A stretch of 64,000 nt of DNA, taken from contig JANSYR010000002.1 of NCBI GenBank assembly GCA_024742285.1, forward strand, positions 434,001-498,000. The letters are read 5' to 3'. Of this stretch, positions 7,345-50,430 are shown in pieces. Under the pieces are notes generated by a model. That model was not told the DNA's origin. It made no database searches and worked only from the letters and a program-made list of their open reading frames with translations. The DNA is from a bacterium. GTDB taxonomy: Bacteria; Myxococcota_A; UBA9160; UBA4427. The translations under genes and the position numbers were made by a program. How positions within the stretch are numbered: the first letter of the stretch is position 1; each line of letters starts with the position of its first letter.

Positions 7345-7735
7345 CGCGTGTCCCCATGTCCGACGGACTCCGGTCCGGCCGGAGTTCATTGCAGGTCGGT
7401 CGCAGGCATGAACGGAGAGCCACCTCCGAACGCCACGACCCCAGAGAATGGTGTCCACATCGACTCGGAAGGGGGCTAGCGATAGGGCCAATCCCCAGAG
7501 GAACACGAATTCGGGCGGAGTTTCGCCGGCAATCGACACGCAGTCACGCGGGATTGCCCTACCGTTCGCAAAGGACTTCAACCCTTTTTGGGTTTCGGCG
7601 GTCACTCCCCTAGCGGCACCGCTTCGGCCCCGAAGGGTAGTGGCTCAAGGAACGCCTAGAGCCGCTCGATATGCCCTGAATCCATCGAATCCGGGAAGCG
7701 GCCGATTCGAACGTCCTGGCCTGAGGGATCCATCC
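7345..7735. promoter_or_regulatory. divergent intergenic region between glycosyltransferase and NRPS
   Basis: About 390 nt with no convincing gene. It must carry the promoters for the leftward glycosyltransferase-flippase operon and the rightward assembly line. A short perfect inverted repeat with a T5 loop lies at 7580-7594 and another (CTTCGG..CCGAAG) at 7622-7635. Neither is long enough to call an operator or terminator. GAGGGA at 7723-7728 is the probable ribosome site for the NRPS. I could not assign -35/-10 boxes. Confidence 0.4.
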
Positions 7736-12503: not shown

Positions 12504-15500
12504 ATGAGCGAAGAGGGACCGGGCGAGAACGACATCGCGATCGTGGGCATGGCGCTGCGCGTGCCCGGCGCGAACACGCCCGCGGCGTTCTGGGACAATC
12601 TCCGGAACGGCGTCGAGTCGATCGTCGACTACGACGAGGAGACGATCCTGGCCTCCGGAGAATCGCCGGCGGCGCTCCGAAACCCCGCCTATGTGCGTCG
12701 TGGTGGCGCGCTCTCCGACGTGAAGCTCTTCGATCGGGAATTCTTCGGCTTCAGCCCCAAGGAAGCGGCGATTCTCGACCCGCAGCACCGTCACTTCATG
12801 GAGCTCTGCTGGGAAGCGCTCGAGGACGCGGGCCACACGCCCAAGCGCTTCGACGGCCAGATCGGACTCTACGGTGGCTGCGGCATGGGCAGCTACTTCT
12901 ACTTCAACGTCTGCAGCAATCGCGACCTGGTCGACTCCGTCGGCCTCTTCCTGCTGCGGCACACCGGGAACGACAAGGATTTCCTGGCCACGCGCGTCTC
13001 GTACGTGCTCGACCTCAAGGGGCCGAGCGTGAACGTGCAGACGGCCTGCTCGACGTCCCTCGTGGCGACGCACCTCGCGGCCCAGAGCCTGCTGTCGGGA
13101 GAGTGCGATCTGGCGCTTGCCGGCGGCGTGACGATCCAGTTTCCGACCGAGGCCGGCTACATCTTCAAGGATGGTGAGGTCCTGTCGCCGGACGGCCACT
13201 GCCACGCCTTCGACCATCGCGCGGCGGGCACCATCCTCACGAGCGGGGGCGGCGTCGTGGCCCTGCGTCGGCTCGAGGACGCGCTCGAGGACGGGGACGA
13301 CGTCTACGCCGTGATCAAGGGGTCGGCCGTCAACAACGACGGCGGCCAGAAGGTCGGATACCTGGCGCCCAGCGTCGACGGCCAGGCCGCCGCCATGACG
13401 GAGGCCTACACCGTCGGCGAGGTCGATCCGGCGACCATCGGAATGATCGAGTGCCACGGCACGGGCACCTACATGGGGGATCCGATCGAGATCTCGGCCC
13501 TCACGCAGGCCTTCCGGGGTTCGGAGAGCGAGGGCGCGACCGAGAACCAGTTCTGTCGGATCGGCTCCGTCAAGACGAACATCGGGCACCTGGACACCGC
13601 CGCCGGGGTCGTGGGGTTGATCAAGGCCGCCCTGTCGGTGCGGAACCGGCAGATCCCGCCCTCTCTGGGCTACGAGAGCCCGAATCCGGAGATCGGCTTC
13701 GGGAATACACCGTTCCTCGTGAACGAGACCCTGACCGACTGGCATTCGACCGACGGCGCGCCTCGGCGCGCGGCGGTGAATTCGCTGGGCGTCGGCGGCA
13801 CCAATGCGCACGTCGTGATCGAGGAGGCCCCGGCGGCCTCACCGTCGGCGAGCGATTCCGACGGCTCGGTTCTCCTCCAGCTGTCGGCGCGCAGCAACAA
13901 GGCGCTCGATGGCGCCTGTGGAAGGTTGGCCTCCTATCTCGAGGCGAACCCGGACGTGCCGCTGGCCGACGTGGCCTTCAGTCTCCAGCAGACCCGTGAG
14001 GAGCTCGAGCGGCGGCGTGTCCTCGTGGCGCGCGACCGTGCGCAGGCGATCGAGCTGCTCGAGGAGCTCGATCCGCGGCGCGTCTTCACGCATCAGGTCC
14101 CGGAGATGCGACCCTCGATCGTGTTCATGTTCACGGGGGCCGGCAGTCAGTACCCGAACATGGGCCGGGATCTCTACGAGAACGAGCCGGTCTTCCGCGA
14201 GCATGCCGACCGGGGCTTCGATCTCTACGAGGAGCGCACCGGCTTCGATCTCCGCTCGCTCGTCTACCCCGACGCGGCCGACGTCGAGAAGTCCGAGTCG
14301 CTGCTGATGGAGACGCCGCGCCAGCTGCCGGCGATCTTCATCATCGAGTACGCGATCGTGCAGCTCTGGCGCTCGAAGGGCGTCGAGCCGTCCATGCTGA
14401 TCGGACAGAGCCTCGGCGAGAACGTCGCCTCCTGCGTGGCGGGCGTCGTGTCGTACGAAGCCTGTCTCGACTGGATGATCCTTCGCGGGCGCCTGACGGA
14501 CGAAACGCCGGCGGGCGCGATGGTGGCGGTCACCTTGCCCGCCGACGAGATCTCCGCGCATCTCGGAGACGAGTGCGATCTGGCCCTCGTGAACGCCCCC
14601 GGGCTCTGCGTCGCTTCCGGCGCCGAGGCTGCGGTGGAGGCGCTCGAGAAGCGACTCGGGGATGCGGAGATCGACTATCAGCGGGTGCCGGTCGCGCGGG
14701 CCGGACACTCGCGCCTCTTCGAACCGATCCTCGACGAGTTCCGTCGCTTCATCGAGAAGCTCGACCTGCAGCCGCCGAAGATTCCGATCGTCTCCAATCG
14801 GACGGGAAAGATCCTTACGGACGAAGAGGCGACGGATCCGGACTACTGGGTCGGCCACCTCCGGCACACGGTCCTGCTCTCGCAGAGTCTGGACACGATT
14901 CTCGAGACCCCCGGCCGCGTCCTCGTGGAGGTCGGTCCCGGTCAGACGCTCGGCTCCTTCGCGCGTCAGCAGCCGCGCGCGTCGACCGCCAACATCCTCG
15001 CGTCGCTGCGTCACCGCGCCGACACCATCGATGATCGCGACTTCCTGCTGGTGAACCGCGGTCGGTTGTGGGCCTCGGGCCTCGACGTCGAGCTCGAGGC
15101 GCTCTACGAGGGCCAGACGCGCCGAAAGGTCCGGCTGCCGACCTACGCGTGGGACCACCAGAGCTACTTCATCGACCGCGTCGAAGCCGAGAGCGGGTCC
15201 GTCGACGAAGGTCTTCCCGAGCACCTCGACGACATCGCGGACTGGAGCTACGTCCCGACCTGGCAGCCCACCGCCGTCGATCCCCGACGCGCCGAGACCC
15301 CGGAGACCTGGCTGATCTTCATGGATCACGCGGGGATCGGGCGCCGCCTCCGCAAGCGACTCGAGGCCCTCGGCCACGTGGTCGTCTGCGTCTTCGAGGC
15401 CGACAGCTTCCGGAAGCGCTCGGAAAACGAGTACTCCCTCGCTCCGGAGCTCGGGCGCGAAGGGTACGAGGCGCTGGTCAAGGACCTCGCCGCGCACGGT

Positions 15501-39037: not shown

Positions 39038-39114
39038 GCCCCCGTAGCTCAGATGGATAGAGCGTCGGTTTCCTAAACCGTGCGTCGCAGGTTCGAGTCC
39101 TGCCGGGGGCGCCA
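39038..39114 (+). tRNA. tRNA-Arg (anticodon CCU)
   Basis: 77 nt including an encoded CCA (39112-39114). Cloverleaf: acceptor GCCCCCG/CGGGGGC, D arm GCTC..GAGC, anticodon loop TTCCTAA with anticodon CCT at positions 34-36 (reads AGG), and T arm GCAGG-TTCGAGT-CCTGC. The lowest pair of the anticodon stem (27-43) is a T-T mismatch. Its 3' 45 nt plus one further base form the integration core repeated at 48177 and, degenerate, at 51265. The gene stays complete because the integrated element restores the 3' end. Confidence 0.95.
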
Positions 39115-39115
39115 G
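39070..39115 (+). repeat. attachment core, copy 1 (attL, inside tRNA-Arg)
   Basis: 46 bp running from the tRNA anticodon loop to one base past CCA. It is identical over all 46 positions to 48177-48222. The bases just before differ by one position (ggT versus ggA), which marks the crossover limit. Confidence 0.93.
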
Positions 39116-39145
39116 GAAATCCAACACCTTAGGAGGAGCTTCTCG

Positions 39146-39907
39146 ATGTCCCAGCTGCCCGAGTTGGCGGATAGTCTGCGAAAGCTCGCGGAATCGGGAA
39201 CAGACTATCGGCTCTCGCGAATGTTCCTCAATCTCATCTACGAGCGTGCTGTCGAGCTCGGGCTCGATCCGGCCGACTTCGAGATGGAGACCTACGTCCT
39301 TCACGGCGGCGGGGGGACAGAGATGCCGACCTTCCGACACCGGTGCACTCGGATGCGTCACGGGCCGACGGAAGGGTATTTCTCCTTCGGGCGCGGAATC
39401 GACGAGGAGGGGTGCTGGACCTACCCCTGTGAATGGTCGCCATCCCATCGTGAGCGGACCAACTTCGGTTCGCCGCCCGATCGCGAGACGCAGGTGCATT
39501 TCGCGACGGAGGATTGGCTTACCGCGATCAAGGTGGAGAAGGAGTCTCCGAATCTCTGGGAAGGGGTTCAGCTAGCGATCGAGGCCTCCGCAGGTTCCGA
39601 AGGTCCGAACGAGCTTCTTGGGGTGGACGCGCGAATTGCATTCGCCAAGGACCTTGATGCGATTCAAAGCGACTTCGAGGAACGGTTCGCCGAGTCTCAG
39701 AGTGCGATCGACGATCTCCGAAAGGAGATCGACTTCCTGAAGGGGTCGACCCAAAGGCTGGGCTGGATCGATCTGAAACGATCCGCTGTCGCATCAGCGG
39801 TAACTCTCGGGATGCAACACGGCCCGGCCTTCGCCAGCGAACTGCTGCAGCGCATCCTTGCGGCGATCGAGCGCGTTCCAGAGCTGCCCGCTGGGATCGT
39901 GCTCTGA
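39146..39907 (+). CDS. element cargo protein of unknown function with coiled coil
   Basis: 253 aa from ATG 39146, preceded by AGGAGGAG about 8 nt upstream. No known domain recognised. The N-terminal half contains several Cys/Trp/His (CTRMRHGP, CWTYPCEWSPSH). Residues about 165-205 are a charged alpha-helical/coiled-coil segment (DLDAIQSDFEERF, then AIDDLRKEIDFL). The C-terminus is helical. No signal peptide or membrane segment. It sits directly inside attL, a position where satellites and islands usually carry accessory or defence cargo, and only 31 nt after the att core. Confidence 0.6.
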   Translation: MSQLPELADSLRKLAESGTDYRLSRMFLNLIYERAVELGLDPADFEMETYVLHGGGGTEMPTFRHRCTRMRHGPTEGYFSFGRGIDEEGCWTYPCEWSPSHRERTNFGSPPDRETQVHFATEDWLTAIKVEKESPNLWEGVQLAIEASAGSEGPNELLGVDARIAFAKDLDAIQSDFEERFAESQSAIDDLRKEIDFLKGSTQRLGWIDLKRSAVASAVTLGMQHGPAFASELLQRILAAIERVPELPAGIVL

Positions 39908-40061
39908 TCTTGCGGTCACGAAAGACGGCTTCGACCTGTCTGCGGCGCTAGCCGGTTTTCGCTCGACGACGTAGCCATGGCGGCCACACAGGCTCTCGGC
40001 TCGCCACGTCGGCCGGTCGCGCCGATCGCAGCGGCGTCGGAGATCGGCTGGGGAGGAGCAT

Positions 40062-40778
40062 ATGGGGAAGCAGAAGAGGCACGTCGGCCGATGCGTCTAC
40101 TGCGGCCACAGCGGAATGGTCACGCGAGACCATGTCCCGCCGAGAGGACTCTTCCCATCCGCGCTGCGTGGGGATCTTCCGATCGTGGATTCCTGCCGGG
40201 CCTGCAATCAGAGCTACGCACACGACATCGAATACGTGCGTGACTGCCTAGCTCTCGATGAGGACGTCGGCTCGACACCCTACGGCGTGGCTCTGTTCGA
40301 GGTCGCCCGCCGCAACGCTCGCCGCGGGTTCGGGCCGGCTCGAGGGCTGATCCGGGATGCGGAGCGCGTTGAGGTGCTCTCCCCGGAAGGCGTCGTCCTC
40401 GGCGAGCGGTTTCAGGTCGGTATCGACCGAGGCCGAATCCTGCACGTTGTCCGCCGCACCGTTCAGGGGCTTTGGGCGCACCATATCGGGCAGGTGCTGC
40501 CCCCGGAGCTGACTGTGAACTGCTGGATGGCTGGTGAGGTCGCCGACGTGGTTCTTGGCGAAGAGGAGCCTTGGATGTCGCTCCGCGAAGAGATCACGAG
40601 CGCGCCGCTCATGAGCCTTGCTAAGGGGGCCTTTGGCTACAGATTCGTGGTTGTTCCCGACCACAGTGAGGCATCGATCTGGTTCCTGCACTTCTACAGC
40701 GCGAAGACGTTCATCGGGATCACGCTCAACGAAGAAGTCGCGGAGGCGCGACGGCGGGAGCAGCGCGAGACTAGCTAG
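40062..40778 (+). CDS. HNH-type endonuclease-like protein (element cargo)
   Basis: 238 aa; ATG 40062 follows GGGGAGGAG by 4-5 nt. The N-terminus has a Zn-ribbon HNH arrangement: CVYCGHSG (about 12-19), RDHVPPRGLFP (about 23-33) and DSCRACNQSY (about 46-55), giving two CxxC pairs with a His/Asp-His centre. The rest (about 60-238) is an unknown alpha/beta domain. HNH proteins of this layout occur in restriction and other defence islands. It converges with the integrase, ends overlapping by 8 nt. A nuclease role is inferred from the motif only. Confidence 0.7.
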   Translation: MGKQKRHVGRCVYCGHSGMVTRDHVPPRGLFPSALRGDLPIVDSCRACNQSYAHDIEYVRDCLALDEDVGSTPYGVALFEVARRNARRGFGPARGLIRDAERVEVLSPEGVVLGERFQVGIDRGRILHVVRRTVQGLWAHHIGQVLPPELTVNCWMAGEVADVVLGEEEPWMSLREEITSAPLMSLAKGAFGYRFVVVPDHSEASIWFLHFYSAKTFIGITLNEEVAEARRREQRETS

Positions 40779-41937
40779 TGAGAGCAGCTTCCAGCGCCGC
40801 TGAAGCTTCTTCCTGCTGGCCGGGAAGCACGTGGGCGTACCGGTCGAGGGTAAAGGCGACTGTTGAGTGCCCGAGTCGCTCTGAGACGATCTTCGGGTTG
40901 ACGCCCGATTCCAGCAGCAGCGTCGCGCACGTGTGGCGGCAGTCGTACCAGCGGAATCGCTTCTTCAGGTCCTCGGGAAGCTCGGCGGCCTTCAGAATCG
41001 GTTTCAGGACCCGACGCGAGAGGTTCGAGTTCCGGATCGGCTCGCCGAGCTCGCCCGCGAACACGAAGCCGTGGTCGTTGTAGGCCCGCTTCAGCTTCAG
41101 GCGCCACGCGAGCTGCGCCCGGCGCCAGCCGCGCAGATCTGCGGCGATCGAAGCGGGTAGGGGGATCCTGCGGCGGCTGAGCCGCGTCTTCGGCTCGCCA
41201 AGCTTCCATATCTTCCCACGCTTCCCGGTCCGCTTGTCGGGCTTCCCGTCGATCCAGGCCAGCGACCGCTCAACGCAGACGACGCCGGCTTCGAGGTCGC
41301 AGTCGTCCCAGCGAAGCCCCTGGACCTCGCCGGGACGCATGCCGGTCGCCATGGAAAAGACGAACACGAAGCCGCGGGGGACCGACTTGGCGGCCTCGCG
41401 GAATGCTCGCGCCTGCGCTGCTGAGAGGGCCAGCATCTCGGTTCGAGACTCCCGGGGCGCCTGGACCCCGTCGACCGGACTCGTCGCGATGTATCCCCAC
41501 CTGACCGCCTGTCGGAGGGCCGCTCGCAGGACGGCGTGAGTGCGCCGGGCACCGTGCGCGCTCGGAAGTCCCTTCAGAAGCTGTTGGACGTCGATCGGCG
41601 TGACCTGGTTGAGCGGGCGCGCGCCGAGCGTCGCGCGAACCGGCTCGAGGAAACGCTGGTAGTCCTGGAGGGTCCGGGGCCTAACCCTGTCCTCGACCGC
41701 GTCCGAGATCCATCGATCGAGGTACTCGCTGAGCGGCAGCCGCGACGGCGTATGCAGCTCGCCAAGGTCGCGCTGCGTCAGCAGCTGCCGGAGAGCCTTC
41801 TCGGCGACCGCCTTCGTCCCATGAACTGTCTTCGACTCGTAGATCCGCTTTCCGGTGTCAGGATGGGTTCCGAGGTAGATCGTCACGAGCCACTTCTGGT
41901 CGCCGCGGCGCCGGATCTGACCGGAACGACGGCTCAA
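40771..41937 (-). CDS. int: tyrosine recombinase (integrase)
   Basis: 388 aa from TTG 41937, which overlaps the upstream stop (TTGA). N-terminal arm-binding beta region (QKWLVTIYLGTHPDTGKR), SAM-like core-binding domain (about 60-150) and catalytic domain with Arg in TGMRPGEVQG (about 198), HTCATLL (His/Arg box, about 328) and LGHSTVAFTLDRYAHV with the nucleophile Tyr (about 360). It should catalyse integration at the tRNA-Arg att core. It lies 1.7 kb from attL with cargo genes between. Co-transcribed with 41934-42755 and 42768-42962. Confidence 0.93.
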   Translation of the reverse strand: MSRRSGQIRRRGDQKWLVTIYLGTHPDTGKRIYESKTVHGTKAVAEKALRQLLTQRDLGELHTPSRLPLSEYLDRWISDAVEDRVRPRTLQDYQRFLEPVRATLGARPLNQVTPIDVQQLLKGLPSAHGARRTHAVLRAALRQAVRWGYIATSPVDGVQAPRESRTEMLALSAAQARAFREAAKSVPRGFVFVFSMATGMRPGEVQGLRWDDCDLEAGVVCVERSLAWIDGKPDKRTGKRGKIWKLGEPKTRLSRRRIPLPASIAADLRGWRRAQLAWRLKLKRAYNDHGFVFAGELGEPIRNSNLSRRVLKPILKAAELPEDLKKRFRWYDCRHTCATLLLESGVNPKIVSERLGHSTVAFTLDRYAHVLPGQQEEASAALEAALTS

Positions 41938-42755
41938 GCGGAAACCTCGCCCCGCGCGTCCGCCATCGCCTCGAGTGACTCCACGGCCGCGAACTGAAAG
42001 TCTCGGATGACGTCTTCGGAGACCATCTCGAAGTCGCCTCGCGCGACGTGTTCGCACAGAATCCACATCACGCGAGCGTGGTCGCGATGGCGCTCCTCCG
42101 TGGAGGTGCTGTAGCGGATGCGGACTCGCTGCCCATGGCACGCATCGAACGCAGCGGCCTGGAGCGCCTCGACGTCGTCGAGCAGGTAGTCGGCCTCGTC
42201 GTGATTGATGTCTGCCGCCCGGACGCGCACAGCGAGGGCCAGCCGTGACGTCGCAAACGAGATGAGATCGGCAGCAGTCGCCGCGCCGGGTTCCTCGTGG
42301 TCAGACGGCACTCCGAAATGGAGCTCGAGCTCGTGAAGACTGTCGTCTGCACAGCGATGATCCGCCGTCATGTCGTCGACGAGCATCCAGTCGAGCTCGT
42401 CGATGATCTCGGAGGCGATTCTGCAGTCCGGACGGTTCTCGAGGCTCGCGAGACCGTGTGCGCGGTTTGCGATCTGCGCCCGGAGTAGTGCGACAGACTG
42501 CGGGTCCCCGGCCACGATGAACTCGACCGTGCCGCCGTCGGCGGTGATTCCCGCAGCCGAGCGAAGTGCGTCGGCGTCGGCCAGGAGGGCGCGGACCTGG
42601 TCGCACAGCCAGTCATCCTCCGCGAGGAACGCGCGAGCGAGCGCCATGCGTCTTCGAGCTCGGGCCTCGAGCCACTCAACCGGCGACGACCGGTCGATCG
42701 TGTCGCGTTCTTCCACGCCGAGCTCGAGCTTGATCACATGGCAGTCCGTTCGCAT
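41934..42755 (-). CDS. element protein of unknown function
   Basis: 273 aa; ATG 42755 preceded by AGGAAGGGG. Predicted mostly helical and acidic, with no recognised domain, signal or membrane segment. It overlaps the integrase start by 4 nt and begins 12 nt after the small regulator-like gene, so it belongs to the integrase operon. Trp-rich (EWLEARARR, DDWLCDQV, ELDWMLVDD), perhaps for protein contacts. Confidence 0.55.
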   Translation of the reverse strand: MRTDCHVIKLELGVEERDTIDRSSPVEWLEARARRRMALARAFLAEDDWLCDQVRALLADADALRSAAGITADGGTVEFIVAGDPQSVALLRAQIANRAHGLASLENRPDCRIASEIIDELDWMLVDDMTADHRCADDSLHELELHFGVPSDHEEPGAATAADLISFATSRLALAVRVRAADINHDEADYLLDDVEALQAAAFDACHGQRVRIRYSTSTEERHRDHARVMWILCEHVARGDFEMVSEDVIRDFQFAAVESLEAMADARGEVSA

Positions 42756-42767
42756 GGATTCCCCTTC

Positions 42768-42962
42768 CTAGCGCCGCATCCTCCGCAGGTGCCGTCGCAA
42801 CAGGTCCGCGACGTAGGCCGCGGGAGCCGTGTCGCCCGCGAGATCTGCGAGCTCTCTCGCCTCTGATTCCGTCAGCGAGATCATGATGCGCCGGTCGCGG
42901 CGCTGGTCAGAGGGGATGGGCTTGCGGCCCGCCCCCGGTCGTTTTCCACCCTTGGGAGACAA
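42768..42962 (-). CDS. small DNA-binding-like protein (ribbon-helix-helix type)
   Basis: 64 aa from TTG 42962; AGGAG lies 6 nt upstream, which decides the start. A basic N-terminus (KGGKRPGAGRKP, an AT-hook-like GAGRKP motif) is followed by IMISLTESEARELADLAGD and a helix, matching the beta strand-helix-helix size of RHH proteins. It is the first gene of the integrase operon, and an inverted repeat (42973-42999) lies immediately upstream, so autoregulation is likely. Confidence in DNA binding is moderate. Confidence 0.6.
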   Translation of the reverse strand: MSPKGGKRPGAGRKPIPSDQRRDRRIMISLTESEARELADLAGDTAPAAYVADLLRRHLRRMRR

Positions 42963-42972
42963 TACGAACTCC

Positions 42973-42999
42973 TATGAATTCCTGCAACTTTCATTCATA
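42973..42999. promoter_or_regulatory. inverted repeat, likely operator of integrase operon
   Basis: TATGAAT (42973-42979) and ATTCATA (42993-42999) form a perfect 7-bp inverted repeat with 13 nt between centres of the arms' inner ends. It is AT-rich in GC-rich surroundings and lies 10 nt upstream of the start of the RHH-like gene, overlapping the place for its promoter and ribosome site. Arm size and location fit an operator for a small dimeric repressor. Confidence 0.55.
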
Positions 43000-43145
43000 A
43001 AGGACGAGCGCGTGTTGCTTTGGCGCGGGCCTCGCTTTGGTGTCGTGCTCCTCGCGCCACCGGCGGCAACTTCGCGGAGCCGGCGCGCGGCGCGGCGGTA
43101 GACTGCGACGCGAGCCGACTCGAACGTCCGAGCCTCGAGCAGAGG

Positions 43146-44474
43146 CTACGGAGCGATACCGTCGATCACCACCATGTGGCTGGGCCGAGCGATGATCATG
43201 TCTGCGCGGAGGTAGGCGCGGATCAGGACGCTCAGCGTCGAGAATCCCAGCCCCGACGCGGCGTCGGTTGCCTCGCGCGAGATCTCGATCGTGAGGCGGG
43301 TGCGCATCCCGACGAGGACCTCGTTGAAGACACCCACGTACGCCTCTGACGCGGCCGTCTCCGTGCCGTGCGTCAGATCGATCGGCACCTGGCCCGACGA
43401 GAAGCGCCGCATCTGCTGCCAGCTCTCCGGGCCAGCATTCGATAGGTAGCGTCCATTCCCATCCTTCTGGCGATCGATCTGCCCCCACGTTCGCGGAGCG
43501 TAGATTGCCGAGATCTGCCCTCGGCCGTTCGCCGATCGGACCATCTCTGCGGCTTGGCTGAAGTCGTCGAGATCGATCGCTGCGCCGTTCGTGCCGAGGT
43601 CGAGGATCTGGACCCCGGTCGTTCCCCGGATCCCCAGCATCTCGGCGCCCGAGCCCGAGCCGCGAAGGAGTCCGAGGTCTAGCGCGAGCCCGAGAGACTC
43701 GGACAGCGAACGCTGCACGACGTCGCCAGCGTTCGGCGAGTCCTCGATCAGCTCGACACTCATCGGCGTCATAGCCACGAGCGTCTTGGCCGTCAGTGTC
43801 TTCGGCCCGAACGCGACGTCCGAGGCGGTGATCGGTGCGTTCTCCGCGTGCCACTCGGACGTCGCGTCCGCCGTGACAGCGGCGAGCTTGAGCGTCGACG
43901 ATTCCATCGGAAGGGTTCGCGCTCCGGCTCGAAGGACCTGGCTCTCGTTTCGCGAGAGATCGATCACGGCATTGGACAGGGGCTCCGGCACGAGGTGACC
44001 GCCAGCTGCGTCGACGCTGACCGTCATGGCGCGCTCCTCGGCCTCGGCGCCATGCCAGTTCCCCGTGACGAGACCTCGCAGATAGCGACCGAAATCGAGA
44101 TCCGACGGCCGGATACCGTCCGGCAGGTTCGGTTCGCAAACGTCCGAGAGCCGCTCCGACGGCGCCAGGCTCCGGACTTGGTTGCCGTTCATGTCGCGGT
44201 ACACGACGCCGCCACGGTCCTCGAGCTCGTTTGACCGAGGGGTTCGGTCGAGCGCGCCGAGGAGGCTATCTCGAGTGGCTGACTCGAGGCGCTCGATCGT
44301 CGTCATCATCCCCTCGGCGGCCTGTGTCACGTGTTCGTAGCGCTGCTCTTCGTCGGCTGAGAGCTTTCGCTGTTCACTCTCCGCTCGGTCGAGGATCTCG
44401 CGAGCGGACTCGATCAGCTCCATTCGTTCCGCCCTGAGGCGCTTGGCTTCCTGTGCGATCTGAACCATGGACAT
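43146..44474 (-). CDS. HK97-family phage major capsid protein
   Basis: 442 aa from ATG 44474. The N-terminal about 100 residues are charged coiled coil (LRAERMELIESAREILDRAE), the delta/scaffold domain of HK97-type capsid precursors. The rest shows family blocks: GGHLVPEPLSN (about 170-180), TLPMESSTLKLAAVT, WHAENAPIT, TAKTLVAMTPMSVELIEDS, LLRGSGSGAEMLGI and a C-terminal YLRADMIIARPSHMVVIDG. It would form the icosahedral shell. No protease, portal or terminase gene accompanies it. The gene is monocistronic-looking, with 235 nt upstream that carry an 18-bp direct repeat and 183 nt downstream. Confidence 0.92.
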   Translation of the reverse strand: MSMVQIAQEAKRLRAERMELIESAREILDRAESEQRKLSADEEQRYEHVTQAAEGMMTTIERLESATRDSLLGALDRTPRSNELEDRGGVVYRDMNGNQVRSLAPSERLSDVCEPNLPDGIRPSDLDFGRYLRGLVTGNWHGAEAEERAMTVSVDAAGGHLVPEPLSNAVIDLSRNESQVLRAGARTLPMESSTLKLAAVTADATSEWHAENAPITASDVAFGPKTLTAKTLVAMTPMSVELIEDSPNAGDVVQRSLSESLGLALDLGLLRGSGSGAEMLGIRGTTGVQILDLGTNGAAIDLDDFSQAAEMVRSANGRGQISAIYAPRTWGQIDRQKDGNGRYLSNAGPESWQQMRRFSSGQVPIDLTHGTETAASEAYVGVFNEVLVGMRTRLTIEISREATDAASGLGFSTLSVLIRAYLRADMIIARPSHMVVIDGIAP

Positions 44475-44571
44475 GGTTTGCCCTTTCGAGCAACGCCGGG
44501 CGCGACACGGAGCTACAGAGCACCGCAATCCATCGCCAAGCGTCGCTTGCGTTGAGGATTCGATCTCCGGA

Positions 44572-44666
44572 GTTCCGCGCTGGGGATACTCGTTCGAGCG
44601 AAGTCGTTTTCTATCTGTTGGGGTTCGATCGGCGACGGAGTCGTCGGCGTTCCGCGCTGGGGATAC
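44572..44666. repeat. two 18-bp direct repeats upstream of the capsid gene
   Basis: GTTCCGCGCTGGGGATAC occurs exactly at 44572-44589 and 44649-44666, 77 nt apart, in the 235-nt space between the capsid gene and 44710. Shorter similarity continues on both sides. They may be binding sites for an element regulator, or a replication or packaging signal; only two copies are present. Confidence 0.6.
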
Positions 44667-44709
44667 GCGTCTCGATCGTGATTCCAACGTACTGCAGGAT
44701 CGCGGGGAA

Positions 44710-45027
44710 TCAACTTGCGAACCTCTCGATTCCGACCGCGGCGATTTCAAGCTGCAGCAGCTTGCAGAGATAGATCGCCCAGACGTTCCCGGGCGTTTCG
44801 ATGAGCGAAGCCTCCGCACGCTCGACTGCGAAATAGATCGCCTTCATGTCTCGCTCGGAAGCGCCCTCGAGGTCGAGTTCAAAGCTCGTGATCGACCGGT
44901 CCCGACGCTCGAGCACGTCGACGAGCGCTGAGCAGAGATCTCCGTCGGACGGGTAGTCGGTCAGCGAGCTGATGAGGGCCGAGATGCCGGCTCGTTCTAC
45001 TCGCGCGAGATCGACGTCAATTCGCAT
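44710..45027 (-). CDS. small element protein, unknown function
   Basis: 105 aa; ATG 45027 lies within the end of the upstream gene (11-nt overlap). Predicted alpha-helical and acidic, with no recognised motif. Part of the run of overlapping genes from 47102 to 44710, so probably co-expressed with the ATPase and HNH-like protein. Confidence 0.5.
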   Translation of the reverse strand: MRIDVDLARVERAGISALISSLTDYPSDGDLCSALVDVLERRDRSITSFELDLEGASERDMKAIYFAVERAEASLIETPGNVWAIYLCKLLQLEIAAVGIERFAS

Positions 45028-45388
45028 AGCCGAGCTCCCCGCGCTCGACGTGCTCGAAGATCGCCCAGTGGGTGTGGATCTCGAGCAGGTGCACGAAGAG
45101 CAGCGCGAACTGCGCCGTTCCGTACCTCCCTCGGATCTCCTGGCGCGCGAGCTGCAGCACTTCGAGCGTCGCCCGCAAGGCGTCGGTTTCGACGACGTCG
45201 AGCGAAAGATCCACCCCGAACGGGTCCACGAGACCGTCTGTAGGGCCGCTCTCGAGACCGCCCATCACGCGGAGCTGCCTTTCGAGCTCGCGAACCGGCA
45301 GAGTTGACGGAGTCAGCCGCGCCAGTGTCTCCAGGAGCAGCGCCGTCGGTGCGCGCTCCAGTTTTCGCATCGAGAAGATGATCGTCAT
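45017..45388 (-). CDS. small element protein, unknown function
   Basis: 123 aa; overlaps the HNH-like gene by 4 nt upstream and the next small gene by 11 nt downstream. Mostly helical, Leu-rich, acidic; no recognised motif. Similar in size and predicted fold to its neighbour at 44710-45027, but I see no convincing sequence similarity between them. The tight overlaps show it belongs to the phage-like transcription unit. Confidence 0.5.
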   Translation of the reverse strand: MTIIFSMRKLERAPTALLLETLARLTPSTLPVRELERQLRVMGGLESGPTDGLVDPFGVDLSLDVVETDALRATLEVLQLARQEIRGRYGTAQFALLFVHLLEIHTHWAIFEHVERGELGYAN

Positions 45389-45978
45389 CGCGTGTTTCTC
45401 CCGTGTGTCGCTTCGACTTTTGAACCCGTCCCCATCTCTCCGTCCCCACCCCCCGCGGTATCGGTCCCCTCAGGCTGTAGAGATTTGACCGCCCCTCCCG
45501 GTGGCGGCGGATGTCCGATCAGCGCGCGCGTCGATTCGCGGGGGACCGAAGTCGGAGACACGCACTCGCCGCGAGGCGAGGCGCGGGCCGCGCGGCATGG
45601 AGCGCACAGCGGCGTGAGGCTCGCGATCACCTCGCTCAGATCGACCGCATCGCCGCCAGCGAACTCGACGTGCGTCGCTGGCTTCTGGCGGCACTCTCGA
45701 CACATGGGGTCGAAGGCGAGGAGGGCGCGCCTGGCGGTGCGCCAGTGAGTACCGGATCTGATGGGGCCGGCGGGGGGGCGGTTCGACGCCGGTCGTATGG
45801 GGGGAGGGGGAGGGTCCGGCTGGCATGTGCGGTGGCCCGCTACCGCCCCCTGGCACGGTTGTCCCTCATCCAACATTTCCAGGGGGTTACGGTATAAGCG
45901 TGTGGCACGGTTGGACTGGTTGGGAGGGCCGGCGAGAGGCGAGCGTGCCAACCGTGCCAGCTGGGCCACGCGCGTCAT
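45385..45978 (-). CDS. degenerate HNH-endonuclease-like protein
   Basis: 197 aa from ATG 45978, which overlaps the ATPase stop by 4 nt and has AAGGGGG just upstream; an in-frame ATG at 46005 has no such site. The middle reads LLAFDPMCRECRQKPATHV and later LTPLCAPCRAAR, the two CxxC pairs of phage HNH proteins. The catalytic His-Asp-His stretch expected after ATHV is not recognisable (EFAGGDAVDL), so it may be inactive or only structural. The flanks (Pro-rich N-terminus, Gly-rich C-terminus) look disordered. Phage HNH proteins usually support DNA packaging near terminase genes, which are absent here. Confidence 0.6.
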   Translation of the reverse strand: MTRVAQLARLARSPLAGPPNQSNRATRLYRNPLEMLDEGQPCQGAVAGHRTCQPDPPPPPIRPASNRPPAGPIRSGTHWRTARRALLAFDPMCRECRQKPATHVEFAGGDAVDLSEVIASLTPLCAPCRAARASPRGECVSPTSVPRESTRALIGHPPPPGGAVKSLQPEGTDTAGGGDGEMGTGSKVEATHGRNTR

Positions 45979-47102
45979 GACGCCCCCTTCCGTTGGTACT
46001 GCCATCGCCCGTCGCTGCGCTTCTTGCTCTCGACGCCAGCCGCGTCCTTCGCGCGCTTCACCGTTCGCATCGAATGCCCCGCGGCTTCGGCGGCTGCCTC
46101 GACGTCAGCTGACAACACCGGGCCTTCCGCGACTAGATGGCGCAACCACTCCGTTGCGCTCTCGCGCGCGGGCGCCGGCACCGGCCGATTGACGCTGCCG
46201 ATGATCTCGTCCGCGTCCCATGAGACGCGCCCGAGCCAATCGACTCGTGAGGTATCACCCGCCGGCCCCTCGACAGATGCGATTCGGTAGCCGAGCGACT
46301 GGGTCTGCATGGGCGGCGCGAGATTCGACTTCGTGACTGCGAGGACTCGGCGATCGCCATCGTCGGGGTCGGTGCCGGCGACGAGGCCAGAGCGCGCAGT
46401 CCCGATGATCGCGATCGAATCCGTCCCGCGATAGAGCGCCCGGCCGTTCTTCACGTCCTTGTTGAGGTGCCGCACGAGAACGACCGCGCAGCCCGTGTCG
46501 GAGGCCGCTCGCTTGATCCGGCTCATAGCCTGCGCCGTCGACTGTGTGTTCTTGGTCCTGGTCGAGGTGCCGGCGAACGTCGCGAACGGGTCGACGATCA
46601 ACAGCTGCGCGCGCAGGTAGGCGATCGTCGCGATGAGCTCGTCCGTCGCGTCCACGACTGAGGGCAGTCCATCGTCCATGTCGATGACGTGAACGCGCTC
46701 GAGGTCTGCGCCGGCCGCTTCGACTCGCGGGCGAATCGTGTCGTCGGGGTCATCCTCTGCGGTCATGATGATGACGTCGCCCTGCGAGCCCTGGGAGCCG
46801 TCAGGCATCGAAGCACCGCTCGACACTCGGGCGGCGAGGTCTGCAAGGATGGTCGACTTTCCGACCCCAGGGTCGCCGTCGAACGTCGTGATCTTCCCGA
46901 GCGGGATGCGGCCTGGCCAAAGCCACTGGACGGCCCTCGGCGTCACGTCGGCGAGGCGCGTGGTCGAGAGCGGCGGCGCGACGAGCACTGCTGGTGACGC
47001 CGAAGGCGTCGTTCCGCAGAGGTCGTGGATCGCCCCGACCCGATCGTCGAGCGAGTCGCTCAGCGCGAGCGTTTCGAGAGGTGATCGGGTCGCCGACTCC
47101 AC
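45975..47102 (-). CDS. RepA/RecA-like AAA ATPase with C-terminal winged-helix
   Basis: 375 aa from GTG 47102 (ribosome site weak). Residues about 45-260 form a RecA-like ATPase of the AAA_25/RepA type: GDPGVGKST Walker A (about 76-84), MTAEDDPDDTIRPR, LLIVDPFATF Walker B (about 145-154) and VVLVRHLNKD (about 187-196). The C-terminal about 70 residues look like a helix-turn-helix. Such proteins act as replicative helicases or loaders in plasmids and satellites, so it probably drives replication of the excised element. It lies 12 nt downstream of the AlpA-type gene. Confidence 0.85.
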   Translation of the reverse strand: MESATRSPLETLALSDSLDDRVGAIHDLCGTTPSASPAVLVAPPLSTTRLADVTPRAVQWLWPGRIPLGKITTFDGDPGVGKSTILADLAARVSSGASMPDGSQGSQGDVIIMTAEDDPDDTIRPRVEAAGADLERVHVIDMDDGLPSVVDATDELIATIAYLRAQLLIVDPFATFAGTSTRTKNTQSTAQAMSRIKRAASDTGCAVVLVRHLNKDVKNGRALYRGTDSIAIIGTARSGLVAGTDPDDGDRRVLAVTKSNLAPPMQTQSLGYRIASVEGPAGDTSRVDWLGRVSWDADEIIGSVNRPVPAPARESATEWLRHLVAEGPVLSADVEAAAEAAGHSMRTVKRAKDAAGVESKKRSDGRWQYQRKGAS

Positions 47103-47114
47103 GCGCGACCGATC

Positions 47115-47324
47115 TCAGCCAACCGTCGATCGAGACTGGCTGTGCGTCGGATCGGCCGTCGGGCCACCCTCTCGAATCCACTTCTCGAGCTCGGACTCGG
47201 AGAAGCGAACGGTTCGCCCGAAGCGCACCGACGGGATCTGCCCGAGGCGTGCGAGCTCATAGACGCGCCAGGTGCTCGATCCGAGTAGCTCGGCGACCTC
47301 GTTGGCCCTGAGTAGCTTTTCCAT
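47115..47324 (-). CDS. AlpA/excisionase-type MerR-like regulator
   Basis: 69 aa from ATG 47324; AGGAGG lies about 10 nt upstream. The sequence LLRANEVAELLGSSTWRVYELARLGQIPSVRFGRTVRFSESELEKWI (given here only as blocks: VAELLG helix, WRVYELARLG recognition helix, PSVRFGR wing, LEKWI) matches the AlpA/excisionase domain. Such proteins activate integrase or excision and early genes of satellites and prophages. It leads the transcription unit with the ATPase. Confidence 0.9.
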   Translation of the reverse strand: MEKLLRANEVAELLGSSTWRVYELARLGQIPSVRFGRTVRFSESELEKWIREGGPTADPTHSQSRSTVG

Positions 47325-47444
47325 CGCTGGTGTCCTCCTCGCTAGCTGCGACGAGGGCACTATGCGTGAGAGCGACGGCGATCACCCGGGCAGACAACGT
47401 GCGGGGATACATGCCTGCCCGAACGAGCGCAGGCGACGCAGACC

Positions 47445-48071
47445 CTAGGTACCGGAGGTCCGCGCGGGAAGGCTGAAGAAGCCGGGCTCCCCCGCCTTAG
47501 GTCGGTGCACCTTGAGGTAGGCGATGCAGGCGTCGGTGCTTGCGAACCCGAACTCCCGTGTCGTCGATTCGATCGCTTCACGCGGCGTCAAGCGTCGGCG
47601 CCGGCGGTCGGTCAGCCGCTGGAGCTCACCCATCTGACTCAGGTAGAACTCGATTACTGCGCAGGAGTCCTTCGGTGGACGGCCACCCGCGACATCGCCC
47701 CTGGCGACTCCGGCGATTCGCGCCGCCTCCGCGGTCGTTGGTGCCTGGCGCGCACGGCGGAAGGCCTCATCCCGCCGCTCCACGGCCTCGCCGCGCGGCA
47801 ACCAATGTGCCGCGAGGGCGAGTGCTTCTGCAAGCGCCTCGAGGTCTCGATGCTCGACGGTCAGCGCGCGCAGCTCGTCCGCAGCCGCGTCGGGATCTTC
47901 GAAGGTGAGGTCGTTGAGGAGCTCGTCGACGCGCGTTCGCAGCCTCTCGATCTGCTCGGTTCGGGCCTCTTCGGAGCCCGGTCTCGAGCTGGGCGGGTCC
48001 AGCGAGAGCGGTGCCGAGCGCCGGTCGGCATCGCCTGAGTCAGTCTGCGAGTCGTCTGCGAACTCCGCCAT
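47445..48071 (-). CDS. element protein of unknown function
   Basis: 208 aa from ATG 48071. A disordered, acidic N-terminus (1-40) is followed by a helical region (about 38-125) and a basic segment (DRRRRRLTPREAIE, about 150-163), then a small C-terminal domain. The layout (helical part plus basic patch) would suit a nucleic-acid-binding or regulatory protein, but no family is recognised. It is the rightmost gene of the element, about 105 nt inside attR, and 120 nt upstream of the AlpA gene. Confidence 0.5.
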   Translation of the reverse strand: MAEFADDSQTDSGDADRRSAPLSLDPPSSRPGSEEARTEQIERLRTRVDELLNDLTFEDPDAAADELRALTVEHRDLEALAEALALAAHWLPRGEAVERRDEAFRRARQAPTTAEAARIAGVARGDVAGGRPPKDSCAVIEFYLSQMGELQRLTDRRRRRLTPREAIESTTREFGFASTDACIAYLKVHRPKAGEPGFFSLPARTSGT

Positions 48072-48176
48072 CCGGACCCAACGATACCCAAACTGGCCCA
48101 GTCGGCGGATCAGGAAATCCGAACAAGTTCAACGGCTACCCATCGCGCCCAATCTGCGCTCATGGCTTGGACCGGA

Positions 48177-48222
48177 TTCCTAAACCGTGCGTCGCAGGTT
48201 CGAGTCCTGCCGGGGGCGCCAG
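48177..48222 (+). repeat. attachment core, copy 2 (attR of the capsid-bearing element)
   Basis: 46 of 46 identical to 39070-39115. It reproduces the 3' part of tRNA-Arg but lacks the 5' half, so it is not a tRNA gene. It also forms the left boundary of the adjacent TIR-FtsK segment. Confidence 0.93.
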
Positions 48223-48339: not shown

Positions 48340-50430
48340 TCAACGCTCGGGGCTGTGAATCGTCACAAGCCGCCCCCGCGAGCCCCGCGTCGGCCCGACG
48401 AGGCCATTAGCTTCCATCTCGCGTAAGATCCTCGAAGCTCTGTTGTTGCCGATTCCGAGCTCGCGTTGAAGTGCTCCGTTGGTAATCGTCTCCCGGCGTG
48501 AAGCGAACTCGACGGCGCGGACGTAGTCTTCGTCAGTGTGTTCCTCGTCCGGGCCGAGCGCGACCTCTAGCGTCGGGCGGACTCTCAAGAGATCGACCAG
48601 CGACCGCGCTTGCGCCGAGGTGACGAGCGGCGTGAGTACGCGTTGGAGAGATGCCGCACCCGGCTTCCGAAGCAAGAGGTCGCCGAACGGGAGTAGTTCC
48701 TCTGCGCCGTTCTGGTCCAGGACTGTTCTGGAGTCTTTTCTCGACGCCACGTGAAAACACGCTCTGGCTGGAAAGCTCGAACGGATTGCGTCGGTCAGAA
48801 CTGTCGTGCGTGTCGACTGAGTGAAAAGAAGTAGATGGATGCCGACCTCTCTCCCCATCTGTGCGATCTGCGGCAACAGCTCCTCCGCAGTGCGCTTGGA
48901 CTTCGCGACGATCGGAGTCAGCTCAGAGATCACTACGACCAAGAACGGCATCGGGTCGCCCTTTACGCTGTGAGCGGCCGCACCACGAGATGCTCGGCTG
49001 GATCTGAGTGCGCGGTTGAACTCGCCCAGCCCTCCGACGCCAGCGTCCCTCAGCCTGGACTGCCGTTCTTCTATCTCGGAGACAACCCACCCCAGGGCAC
49101 CGAGAGCCTCCTCTGGATGTCGAACGACGTCTCCAACAACGTGGGGCGCCTCTTGATAGACGCCGAGGTCCAATCCGAGCGGGTCGAGAAGGACGAGCCC
49201 AAGCTCGTCAGGCGCACATCGGCAAAGCAATGTGCAGAGGACTGCGTGGAGGAGGGTCGATTTGCCCGTGCCCGTCGCCCCGGCAACCAAGAGGCCGGGC
49301 AGCTCGGCGAGGTCAAGGCTCTGAGTGACTCCAATGGTGTCCTGTCCAATCGCAATGCTGAGCTTGGATTCCACGTTTGCGAACGACTTCGATTCCAGGA
49401 TTTCTCGGAGATGAATATCTTCGCGCTCGTCGTTCGGAAGGCGGATGCCCACAACTGCCTTGCCTGGTAGTGGCGCGAGGATTTCGATGGCCGGCGCTCG
49501 AAGAGCGAGAGCAAGATCGCTTCGGTAAGTTGCGACCTTGTTGACCTTGACGCCTGCGGCGGGCTCATACTCATACATGGTGAAGACCGAGCTCGGGTGG
49601 ACTCGGACGACACGGCCGGCGATAGCGAAGTCCGCAAGCTTCTTTTCGATGATCTTGGAGTTCATCAGGAGCGAGTCTCGGTCGTAGGATCGTTCCGGAT
49701 GCGGGTCGGCGAAGATGGAAAGTGAGTCATTCACGCCCGGTGCAAGTGCGATGTCTGCCGCTCCGGAGTCTCGGTTACTACGTAGTCGCTCAGCTTCTCT
49801 GCCCAGCCAGGCATCGCGAGCCGCGGCGAAGGCGCTTTGGGCGCGGAGCAGTAGGGGTTTGCGAACTGGCGATTGGGTCGAGTCCGCACGTTTGGCGCTG
49901 GATGTCTCGAGGTTCCATGGCGACGGCGGGACGTCGCTTGCCTGTGAGGTGTGTGCAGGCCCCATTGACCCGAGTTCCTCGAGCCGGCGGAGCAGTTGGT
50001 CCGCGTCCGTCCCGAAGCTCACGTGCCTCAGCTCGGCGCATTGGATCGACGACATCGGCCAGAGCGAACTGGGCAGGTCGGAGCGCCTCGGCATCTGGGT
50101 ACCTCCCACGAGAACGGGAAGGACTGTGATGTTCGACTCCAAGCCGCGCTCGATCTCGATGCGGACGTAGTCGGTGGCGTCGTCAATGCGCCGGTGGGGA
50201 GAGTCGCGAGACCGACCTTCCCAGCGTGGCCCGATAACGACGAGCATCAGTTCAGATTGAGCGACCGCCTGTTCGACGACGTCAAGAAAGTCGACGCCTG
50301 GGGGGATCGTCGCGTCCACATCCATGAAGACTCGCTCGGCGTCTCCTAGATAGTCGACCAGTCGATCGTAGAGACGGCCGGCGTGCCCGGCGTCCTCGCG
50401 GCGATAGCTGATGAATATCTTGGAGATCAT
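48340..50430 (-). CDS. TIR domain - FtsK-type DNA translocase fusion (putative defence protein)
   Basis: 696 aa, ATG 50430. Residues 1-150 are a bacterial TIR domain: KIFISYRRED (4-13), VFMDVDATIPPG (34-45), LMLVVIGPRW (61-70), a candidate catalytic Glu in DYVRIEIERGL (Glu92 or Glu94) and VLPVLVGG (103-110). A variable linker (150-240) leads to an FtsK alpha/beta region (about 255-335). The FtsK/SpoIIIE motor follows (about 345-600): GATGTGKS Walker A (384-391), LLDPLGLDLGVYQEAPHVV, LLFTQST (535-541) and KDSRTVLDQNGAEELL (565-580). The Walker B reads FLVVVISEL, with Ser502 where FtsK has Asp. Residues about 633-690 form a winged helix like FtsK gamma. TIR domains commonly cleave NAD or signal; the motor may sense foreign DNA. 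No partner gene is seen. Confidence 0.88.
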   Translation of the reverse strand: MISKIFISYRREDAGHAGRLYDRLVDYLGDAERVFMDVDATIPPGVDFLDVVEQAVAQSELMLVVIGPRWEGRSRDSPHRRIDDATDYVRIEIERGLESNITVLPVLVGGTQMPRRSDLPSSLWPMSSIQCAELRHVSFGTDADQLLRRLEELGSMGPAHTSQASDVPPSPWNLETSSAKRADSTQSPVRKPLLLRAQSAFAAARDAWLGREAERLRSNRDSGAADIALAPGVNDSLSIFADPHPERSYDRDSLLMNSKIIEKKLADFAIAGRVVRVHPSSVFTMYEYEPAAGVKVNKVATYRSDLALALRAPAIEILAPLPGKAVVGIRLPNDEREDIHLREILESKSFANVESKLSIAIGQDTIGVTQSLDLAELPGLLVAGATGTGKSTLLHAVLCTLLCRCAPDELGLVLLDPLGLDLGVYQEAPHVVGDVVRHPEEALGALGWVVSEIEERQSRLRDAGVGGLGEFNRALRSSRASRGAAAHSVKGDPMPFLVVVISELTPIVAKSKRTAEELLPQIAQMGREVGIHLLLFTQSTRTTVLTDAIRSSFPARACFHVASRKDSRTVLDQNGAEELLPFGDLLLRKPGAASLQRVLTPLVTSAQARSLVDLLRVRPTLEVALGPDEEHTDEDYVRAVEFASRRETITNGALQRELGIGNNRASRILREMEANGLVGPTRGSRGRLVTIHSPER

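Follow-up and report, generated by a model that had tools for sequence, protein, structure and literature searches.

A 64,000-nucleotide stretch of a Myxococcota_A genome (hereafter the window; GenBank assembly GCA_024742285.1, contig JANSYR010000002.1, positions 434,001 to 498,000) carries a compact integrated element whose only recognised phage structural gene encodes an HK97-type major capsid protein. We interpret it as a helper-dependent phage satellite of PICI-like design that would use its own capsid protein to form small heads while a helper phage gives portal, motor and tail, and we assign this reading a probability of roughly 0.6. Comparable elements whose shells belong to one lineage are present in at least seven bacterial phyla, which suggests a widespread parasite that provides a small shell and relies on a helper virus for everything else.

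The element (39070-48222) is bounded by perfect 46-bp direct repeats at 39070-39115 and 48177-48222, and the repeat restores the 3′ end of tRNA-Arg(CCT). It measures 9,107 bp from repeat start to repeat start, or 9,153 bp with both repeats. These are exactly the borders, and the size of about 9.1 kb, that a first-pass annotation had proposed for this DNA, and the integrase, AlpA regulator and RepA-like ATPase that it had named were all recovered with Pfam and PHROG profiles. The features are as follows:

39038-39114, plus strand: tRNA-Arg, anticodon CCT, the integration target (ARAGORN, Rfam)
39070-39115: attL, repeat copy 1, the 3′ part of the tRNA (exact 46-bp repeat)
39146-39907, plus strand: 253-aa protein, probable cargo (ORF; no Pfam or PADLOC match)
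40062-40778, plus strand: 238-aa HNH-type protein, probable cargo (sub-threshold PF14279 match, E=0.0027)
40771-41937, minus strand: tyrosine integrase, 388 aa from the predicted start (PF00589, 2.6e-21; phrog_1, 6e-70)
41934-42755, minus strand: 273-aa protein, no family assigned (ORF with coding score)
42768-42962, minus strand: 64-aa candidate ribbon-helix-helix (Arc-like) regulator (phrog_3431, E=0.036, weak)
43146-44474, minus strand: HK97-type major capsid protein, 442 aa, with an N-terminal delta-like helical domain (PF05065, 1.3e-31; AlphaFold2; Foldseek)
44710-45027, minus strand: 105-aa protein, no family assigned (ORF with coding score)
45017-45388, minus strand: 123-aa protein, no family assigned (ORF with coding score; no TerS likeness found)
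45385-46005, minus strand: ORF with a degenerate HNH-like C-x2-C region, a doubtful gene (phrog_2323, 1.4e-4; passed over by the gene model)
45975-47102, minus strand: RepA-like AAA_25 ATPase, replication module (PF13481, 9e-32)
47115-47324, minus strand: AlpA-family excisionase/activator (PF05930, 7.9e-5; HTH_17, 1.4e-11; phrog_66, 7.7e-12)
47445-48071, minus strand: 208-aa protein, no family found (ORF with coding score)
48177-48222: attR, repeat copy 2 (exact 46-bp repeat)

The two plus-strand probable cargo genes adjoin attL, and the remaining element genes lie on the minus strand. The 238-aa cargo protein has a weak likeness to the HNH domains of Septu PtuB/PDC-M01B (PADLOC PDC-M01B, 2e-4). 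Separately, the 123-aa and 273-aa proteins share a weakly similar stretch of 59 residues (E=0.007 in a small set). Directly beyond attR, on the minus strand (48340-50430), a 696-aa protein with a TIR-like region at its N-terminus and an FtsK/SpoIIIE-like ATPase region, both recognised by eye, is a possible defence gene.

The first-pass annotation had also held that portal, protease, terminase and tail genes were missing, and both six-frame and profile searches agreed. A Pfam scan of 54 six-frame ORFs of the element detected none of the four, returning only the families already named together with weak helix-turn-helix and integrase sub-domain matches, and a PHROG scan of its plausible genes was likewise negative for all of them. 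Whole-genome six-frame searches for the PF04860 portal and for large terminases (PF03354, PF20441, phrog_2) gave no match within the element. Comparison of the window copy with the P27- and Nu1-type TerS of related elements by hhalign, a weak test since the profiles held two or three sequences, was negative, and no packaging site was recognised in the window copy. With no portal, protease or terminase hidden among its proteins and the same design recurring in relatives, the notion of a satellite whose phage component is the capsid only was supported.

The capsid ORF is intact (442 aa; PF05065, 1.3e-31; phrog_10, 1e-39). An AlphaFold2 model (mean pLDDT 77) has an N-terminal helical domain resembling a delta or scaffold domain, and Foldseek matched this model to the shells of HK97, D3, RcGTA and encapsulins, with E-values down to 4e-14. 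The model predicts a full-length protein with an HK97 gp5-like fold, in keeping with the complete capsid protein and scaffold domain originally claimed. The region aligned with HK97 residues 104-140 (the N-arm) is present, seemingly at full length. When the capsid genes of sibling elements are compared by codon position, identity peaks at position 2 and is least at position 3, indicating coding constraint.

Relatives were found both near and far. A PF05065 capsid is present in nine of 79 genomes of the window's order, and in seven of these nine (G000, the window's own genome, together with G034, G040, G046, G068, G069 and G078) no PF04860 portal was found anywhere; G040 has an ordinary-looking prophage with another kind of portal (by eye). 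Complete Myxococcota elements L010, L011 and L013 measure 9351, 8993 and 9207 bp and are flanked by att repeats of 63, 56 and 41 bp, respectively. Element L042 (G069; 9122 bp) carries an added large terminase, and L015 (G078) is truncated where its contig stops. As a single-protein query the window capsid found nothing in IMG/VR or GTDB contigs. A GTDB contig scan with the window capsid paired with that of L010 returned seven loci: L010 again and six capsid-only or near-capsid-only elements, from Acidobacteriota, Actinomycetota, Synergistota, Spirochaetota, Planctomycetota and Pseudomonadota. Att repeats lie at a tRNA or tmRNA gene in five of these elements, and none were found for the Amycolatopsis element. 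The Amycolatopsis capsid, used as a query, had no match in IMG/VR; the order of Amycolatopsis yielded two further elements, L171 and L172.

A common plan of integrase, AlpA/excisionase, helicase/primase and capsid, lacking a portal or tail tube, is present in L010, L011, L013, L058, L060-L064, L171 and L172. The first-pass annotation had called for a search for elements of the same gene order, and a recurrent design across phyla was indeed found. In the genomes searched, none of the relatives' elements contains a portal; the genomes of Amycolatopsis anabasis (L060; an HK97-type portal) and of the Hyphomonadaceae relative have one elsewhere. Several relatives carry additional phage genes: TerS in L010, L011, L013 and L061; a maturation protease, separate or fused, in L058, L011, L013 and L171; a tape-measure gene in L062 and L064; and a large terminase in just the one relative noted above. 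These extra genes form a pattern in which parts for recognition, shell and maturation are retained without a portal, and with a large terminase in a single case. The description of the element as having a single phage gene class therefore holds for the window copy but often not for its siblings, in which TerS, a protease or a tape-measure protein is frequently present as well. Divergence among the rows of a nine-row capsid alignment (A3) was too great to permit a pattern scan.

In the capsid tree, ten capsid-only elements and the IMG/VR contigs L065 and L066 formed one clade (support 100/98). None of the sampled phage and prophage capsids, which were drawn from the best matches to 50,697 phage records and from prophages belonging to the phylum, fell inside it; tree and clade were built outward from the window's own relatives, used as the query, with long rows and L163 left out of the final tree. 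The ten clade elements span seven phyla, and nine of them have recognisable att repeats, at sizes of 7.6-11.0 kb. The clade is not exclusively capsid-only, since L066 has portal-like and protease-like genes beside its capsid gene (by eye). The capsids of L011, L013 and L015 fall within a different, VP882-like group, indicating that capsid-only elements arose, or recruited a capsid, more than once. As a separate observation, clade member L065, on a 32-kb contig, adjoins an oppositely oriented block like prophage late genes (lysozyme-like, by eye) and could be a helper-adjacent satellite.

Element size is clustered. In a measured set made up of capsid-bearing elements only, with the repeat search limited to 5-16 kb spacing (to 17 kb for the L171/L172 search), the att-to-att sizes (n=12) were 9107, 9351, 8993, 9207, 9122, 9496, 9040, 9250, 9199, 10996, 10085 and 7628 bp, two repeat choices being possible for L061 (9040 or 9150) and for L042 (9122 or 8949). 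Nine of the 12 lie within 8,993-9,496 bp around a median of 9,203 bp, with outliers at 7,628, 10,085 and 10,996. Volume scaling from HK97 (39.7 kb, T=7) gives 11.1 kb for a T=3 shell and 17.2 kb for T=4, from which we infer that an element of about 9 kb would best suit T=3.

We propose that when a helper phage becomes active, AlpA and the integrase would excise the element and the RepA-like ATPase would drive its replication, roles that are taken from the gene families. The satellite's own shell subunit would then form small heads holding about one 9.1-kb unit, and the helper portal, large terminase and tail would finish the particle in which the element may be transferred. By analogy with Gram-negative PICIs (PMC6092414), we count the element's own replication gene and AlpA in favour of a satellite. 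The TerS carried by four relatives (L010, L011, L013, L061) is expected if the helper motor is steered to satellite DNA, and the protease of another set (L058, L171, L011, L013) argues for a shell that matures independently of the helper. Because the window capsid keeps the N-arm region and siblings bring a protease, we lean modestly towards a shell built mainly of satellite protein over one in which only pentamers are replaced, as by the SaPIbov5 protein Ccm. Weighing against the satellite interpretation are the helper that was not found, the lack of a recognised TerS or packaging site in the window copy, the presence of L066 in the capsid clade and a size that is not absolute.

The first-pass annotation had proposed looking for helper prophages in the same genome. 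There the PF04860 portal is absent, and one clear prophage is present (G000:C2:129300-165700; L178, L179), podovirus-like, complete-looking and about 340 kb from the element. Its genes include an integrase, TerL, portal-like and scaffold-like proteins, a phrog_3437 capsid and T7-type tail tubular proteins. The capsid family is unrelated to that of the element, and in a search for a shared packaging signal, words in common with the element were no more numerous than for a control region. There is thus no sign that this prophage is the helper, and the search brought no other to light.

The alternative that survives best, though we judge it unlikely, is that the satellite protein replaces some capsomers (the pentamers) in heads otherwise made of helper protein and so redirects assembly to small isometric heads. 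SaPIbov5 Ccm provides an exact precedent, and one showing that head size can be set by a lone capsid homologue: it is an HK97-fold protein with only 23% identity to that of its helper, takes up the pentamer positions in T=4 procapsids, and no other SaPI protein is required (PMC8569155, PMC6893505). Like SaPIbov5, the window copy has no protease and no recognised TerS. However, Ccm has no long extended N-arm, cannot build shells alone and works only with the helper capsid protein (PMC8569155), whereas the window protein keeps both its delta-like domain and the HK97 104-140 region. Moreover, several siblings carry their own maturation protease, the median size of 9.2 kb is below the content of a T=4 shell, and the capsid clade extends across seven phyla far from the sampled phage capsids, making co-assembly with particular helper proteins unlikely.

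We consider it quite improbable that the capsid protein poisons helper assembly, or that the shell serves the cell in an encapsulin-like manner, with the element not packaged in it. The Foldseek matches to encapsulins and the weak resemblance of the cargo HNH gene to defence HNH proteins would fit such a role, and EcCICFT073 has a capsid homologue yet packs in full-size heads (PMC6092414). Against it, the TerS, protease and tape-measure genes beside sibling capsids point to packaging, and sizes cluster. A delta-like N-terminus is characteristic of phages and is not known from encapsulins, which we also count against a cellular shell. That the element is a degraded ordinary prophage keeping one structural gene by chance is barely credible: the extra phage genes do differ among relatives (TerL in L042, tape measure in L062 and L064, portal and protease in L066), but the att repeats are perfect and the ORFs intact, no remnant structural module, decayed ORFs or larger ancestral span was found, there are at least two independent capsid sources, and the relatives show not decay but a recurrent design, with one truncated gene set shared by distant phyla although the att sites differ, and with similar sizes.

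Returning to the satellite interpretation, the element has the integrase, replication module (AAA_25 ATPase) and regulator (AlpA) of a PICI and no structural or lytic genes beyond the capsid-morphogenesis homologue that the definition allows; at 9,107 bp it lies outside the 12-15 kb range. That larger size is the published norm for Gram-negative PICIs; compared by description, two of them from Gammaproteobacteria have int and a single capsid homologue in common with the window element, namely EcCICFT073, which also shares alpA, and PmCI172, which yields small heads (PMC6092414, PMC6893505). SaPIbov5 (PMC8569155) likewise combines an integrase, a replication module and one HK97-fold capsid homologue with a delta domain, encodes neither portal nor terminase nor tail, and so shows the same pairing of fold and domain within a satellite; the window element differs in its N-arm-length capsid region, its 9.1 kb, its phylum and its AlpA regulator. 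According to PMC10690885 (citing Alqurainy 2023), cf-PICIs are also small integrative islands with their own PF05065 capsid, but they carry portal, protease, connectors, TerS, TerL and HNH, where the window element has its HK97-type capsid and a doubtful HNH only. Judged by its genes, the element falls outside the cf-PICI definition and is PICI-like. The Vibrio PISP satellite-plasmid TG93 (PMC13230959) has a capsid gene with few other structural genes, and protease and TerS as in some siblings; it differs in its PF03864-type capsid, its episomal state, its 11.1 kb, its restriction to Vibrio and its lack of an integrase. PICMIs (PMC10803314) have a similarly minimal gene content and no capsid remodelling gene. 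Charybdis elements and the Mulch/Flayer satellites were weighed as comparisons and set aside.

The claim that other satellites usually lack a capsid gene overlooked SaPIbov5 Ccm, PmCI172, EcCICFT073 and the Vibrio PISP (PMC8569155, PMC6092414, PMC13230959); lone capsid homologues being known in satellites, the idea is not new in kind. What is new here is a separate cross-phylum capsid lineage, a size that recurs around 9.2 kb, and indications of a shell that may be complete, not pentamer-only. More tentatively, and short of thinking it probable, we suggest a widespread shell-only class of satellites, with a capsid lineage now mainly of satellites in at least seven phyla alongside parallel capsid recruitment, that would build complete and very small heads, about T=3 by volume scaling, from their own protein around helper portals and motors. 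Known satellites either rework the heads of a helper or supply almost the full set of head genes. An element that brought only the shell, recurring in several phyla at a size near 9.2 kb, would imply that a foreign shell can join helper portals and motors, and what sets head size and portal compatibility would become testable. The findings also suggest that satellite surveys demanding several phage hallmark genes would miss the whole class.

Several relatives have features worth recording in their own right. Two actinobacterial islands, L177:5418-14967 (27-bp repeats) and L174:4859-14930 (21-bp), have a capsid outside the main clade; neither genome has a portal, and L177 has AICE-like replication/transfer genes (by eye). 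In L063 (9719-11041) the delta-like N-terminal domain and the core of the capsid lie in two ORFs, because of a frameshift or because the scaffold has a gene to itself. The cargo of L010 includes a metallo-beta-lactamase-fold protein (12574-13692) like the Lamassu LmuA/RT-associated MBL models (PADLOC 8e-20). Finally, the tape-measure genes at L062:6734-9070 and L064:9513-11873 lie in capsid-bearing satellites with no other recognised tail gene, and these satellites might set tail length too.
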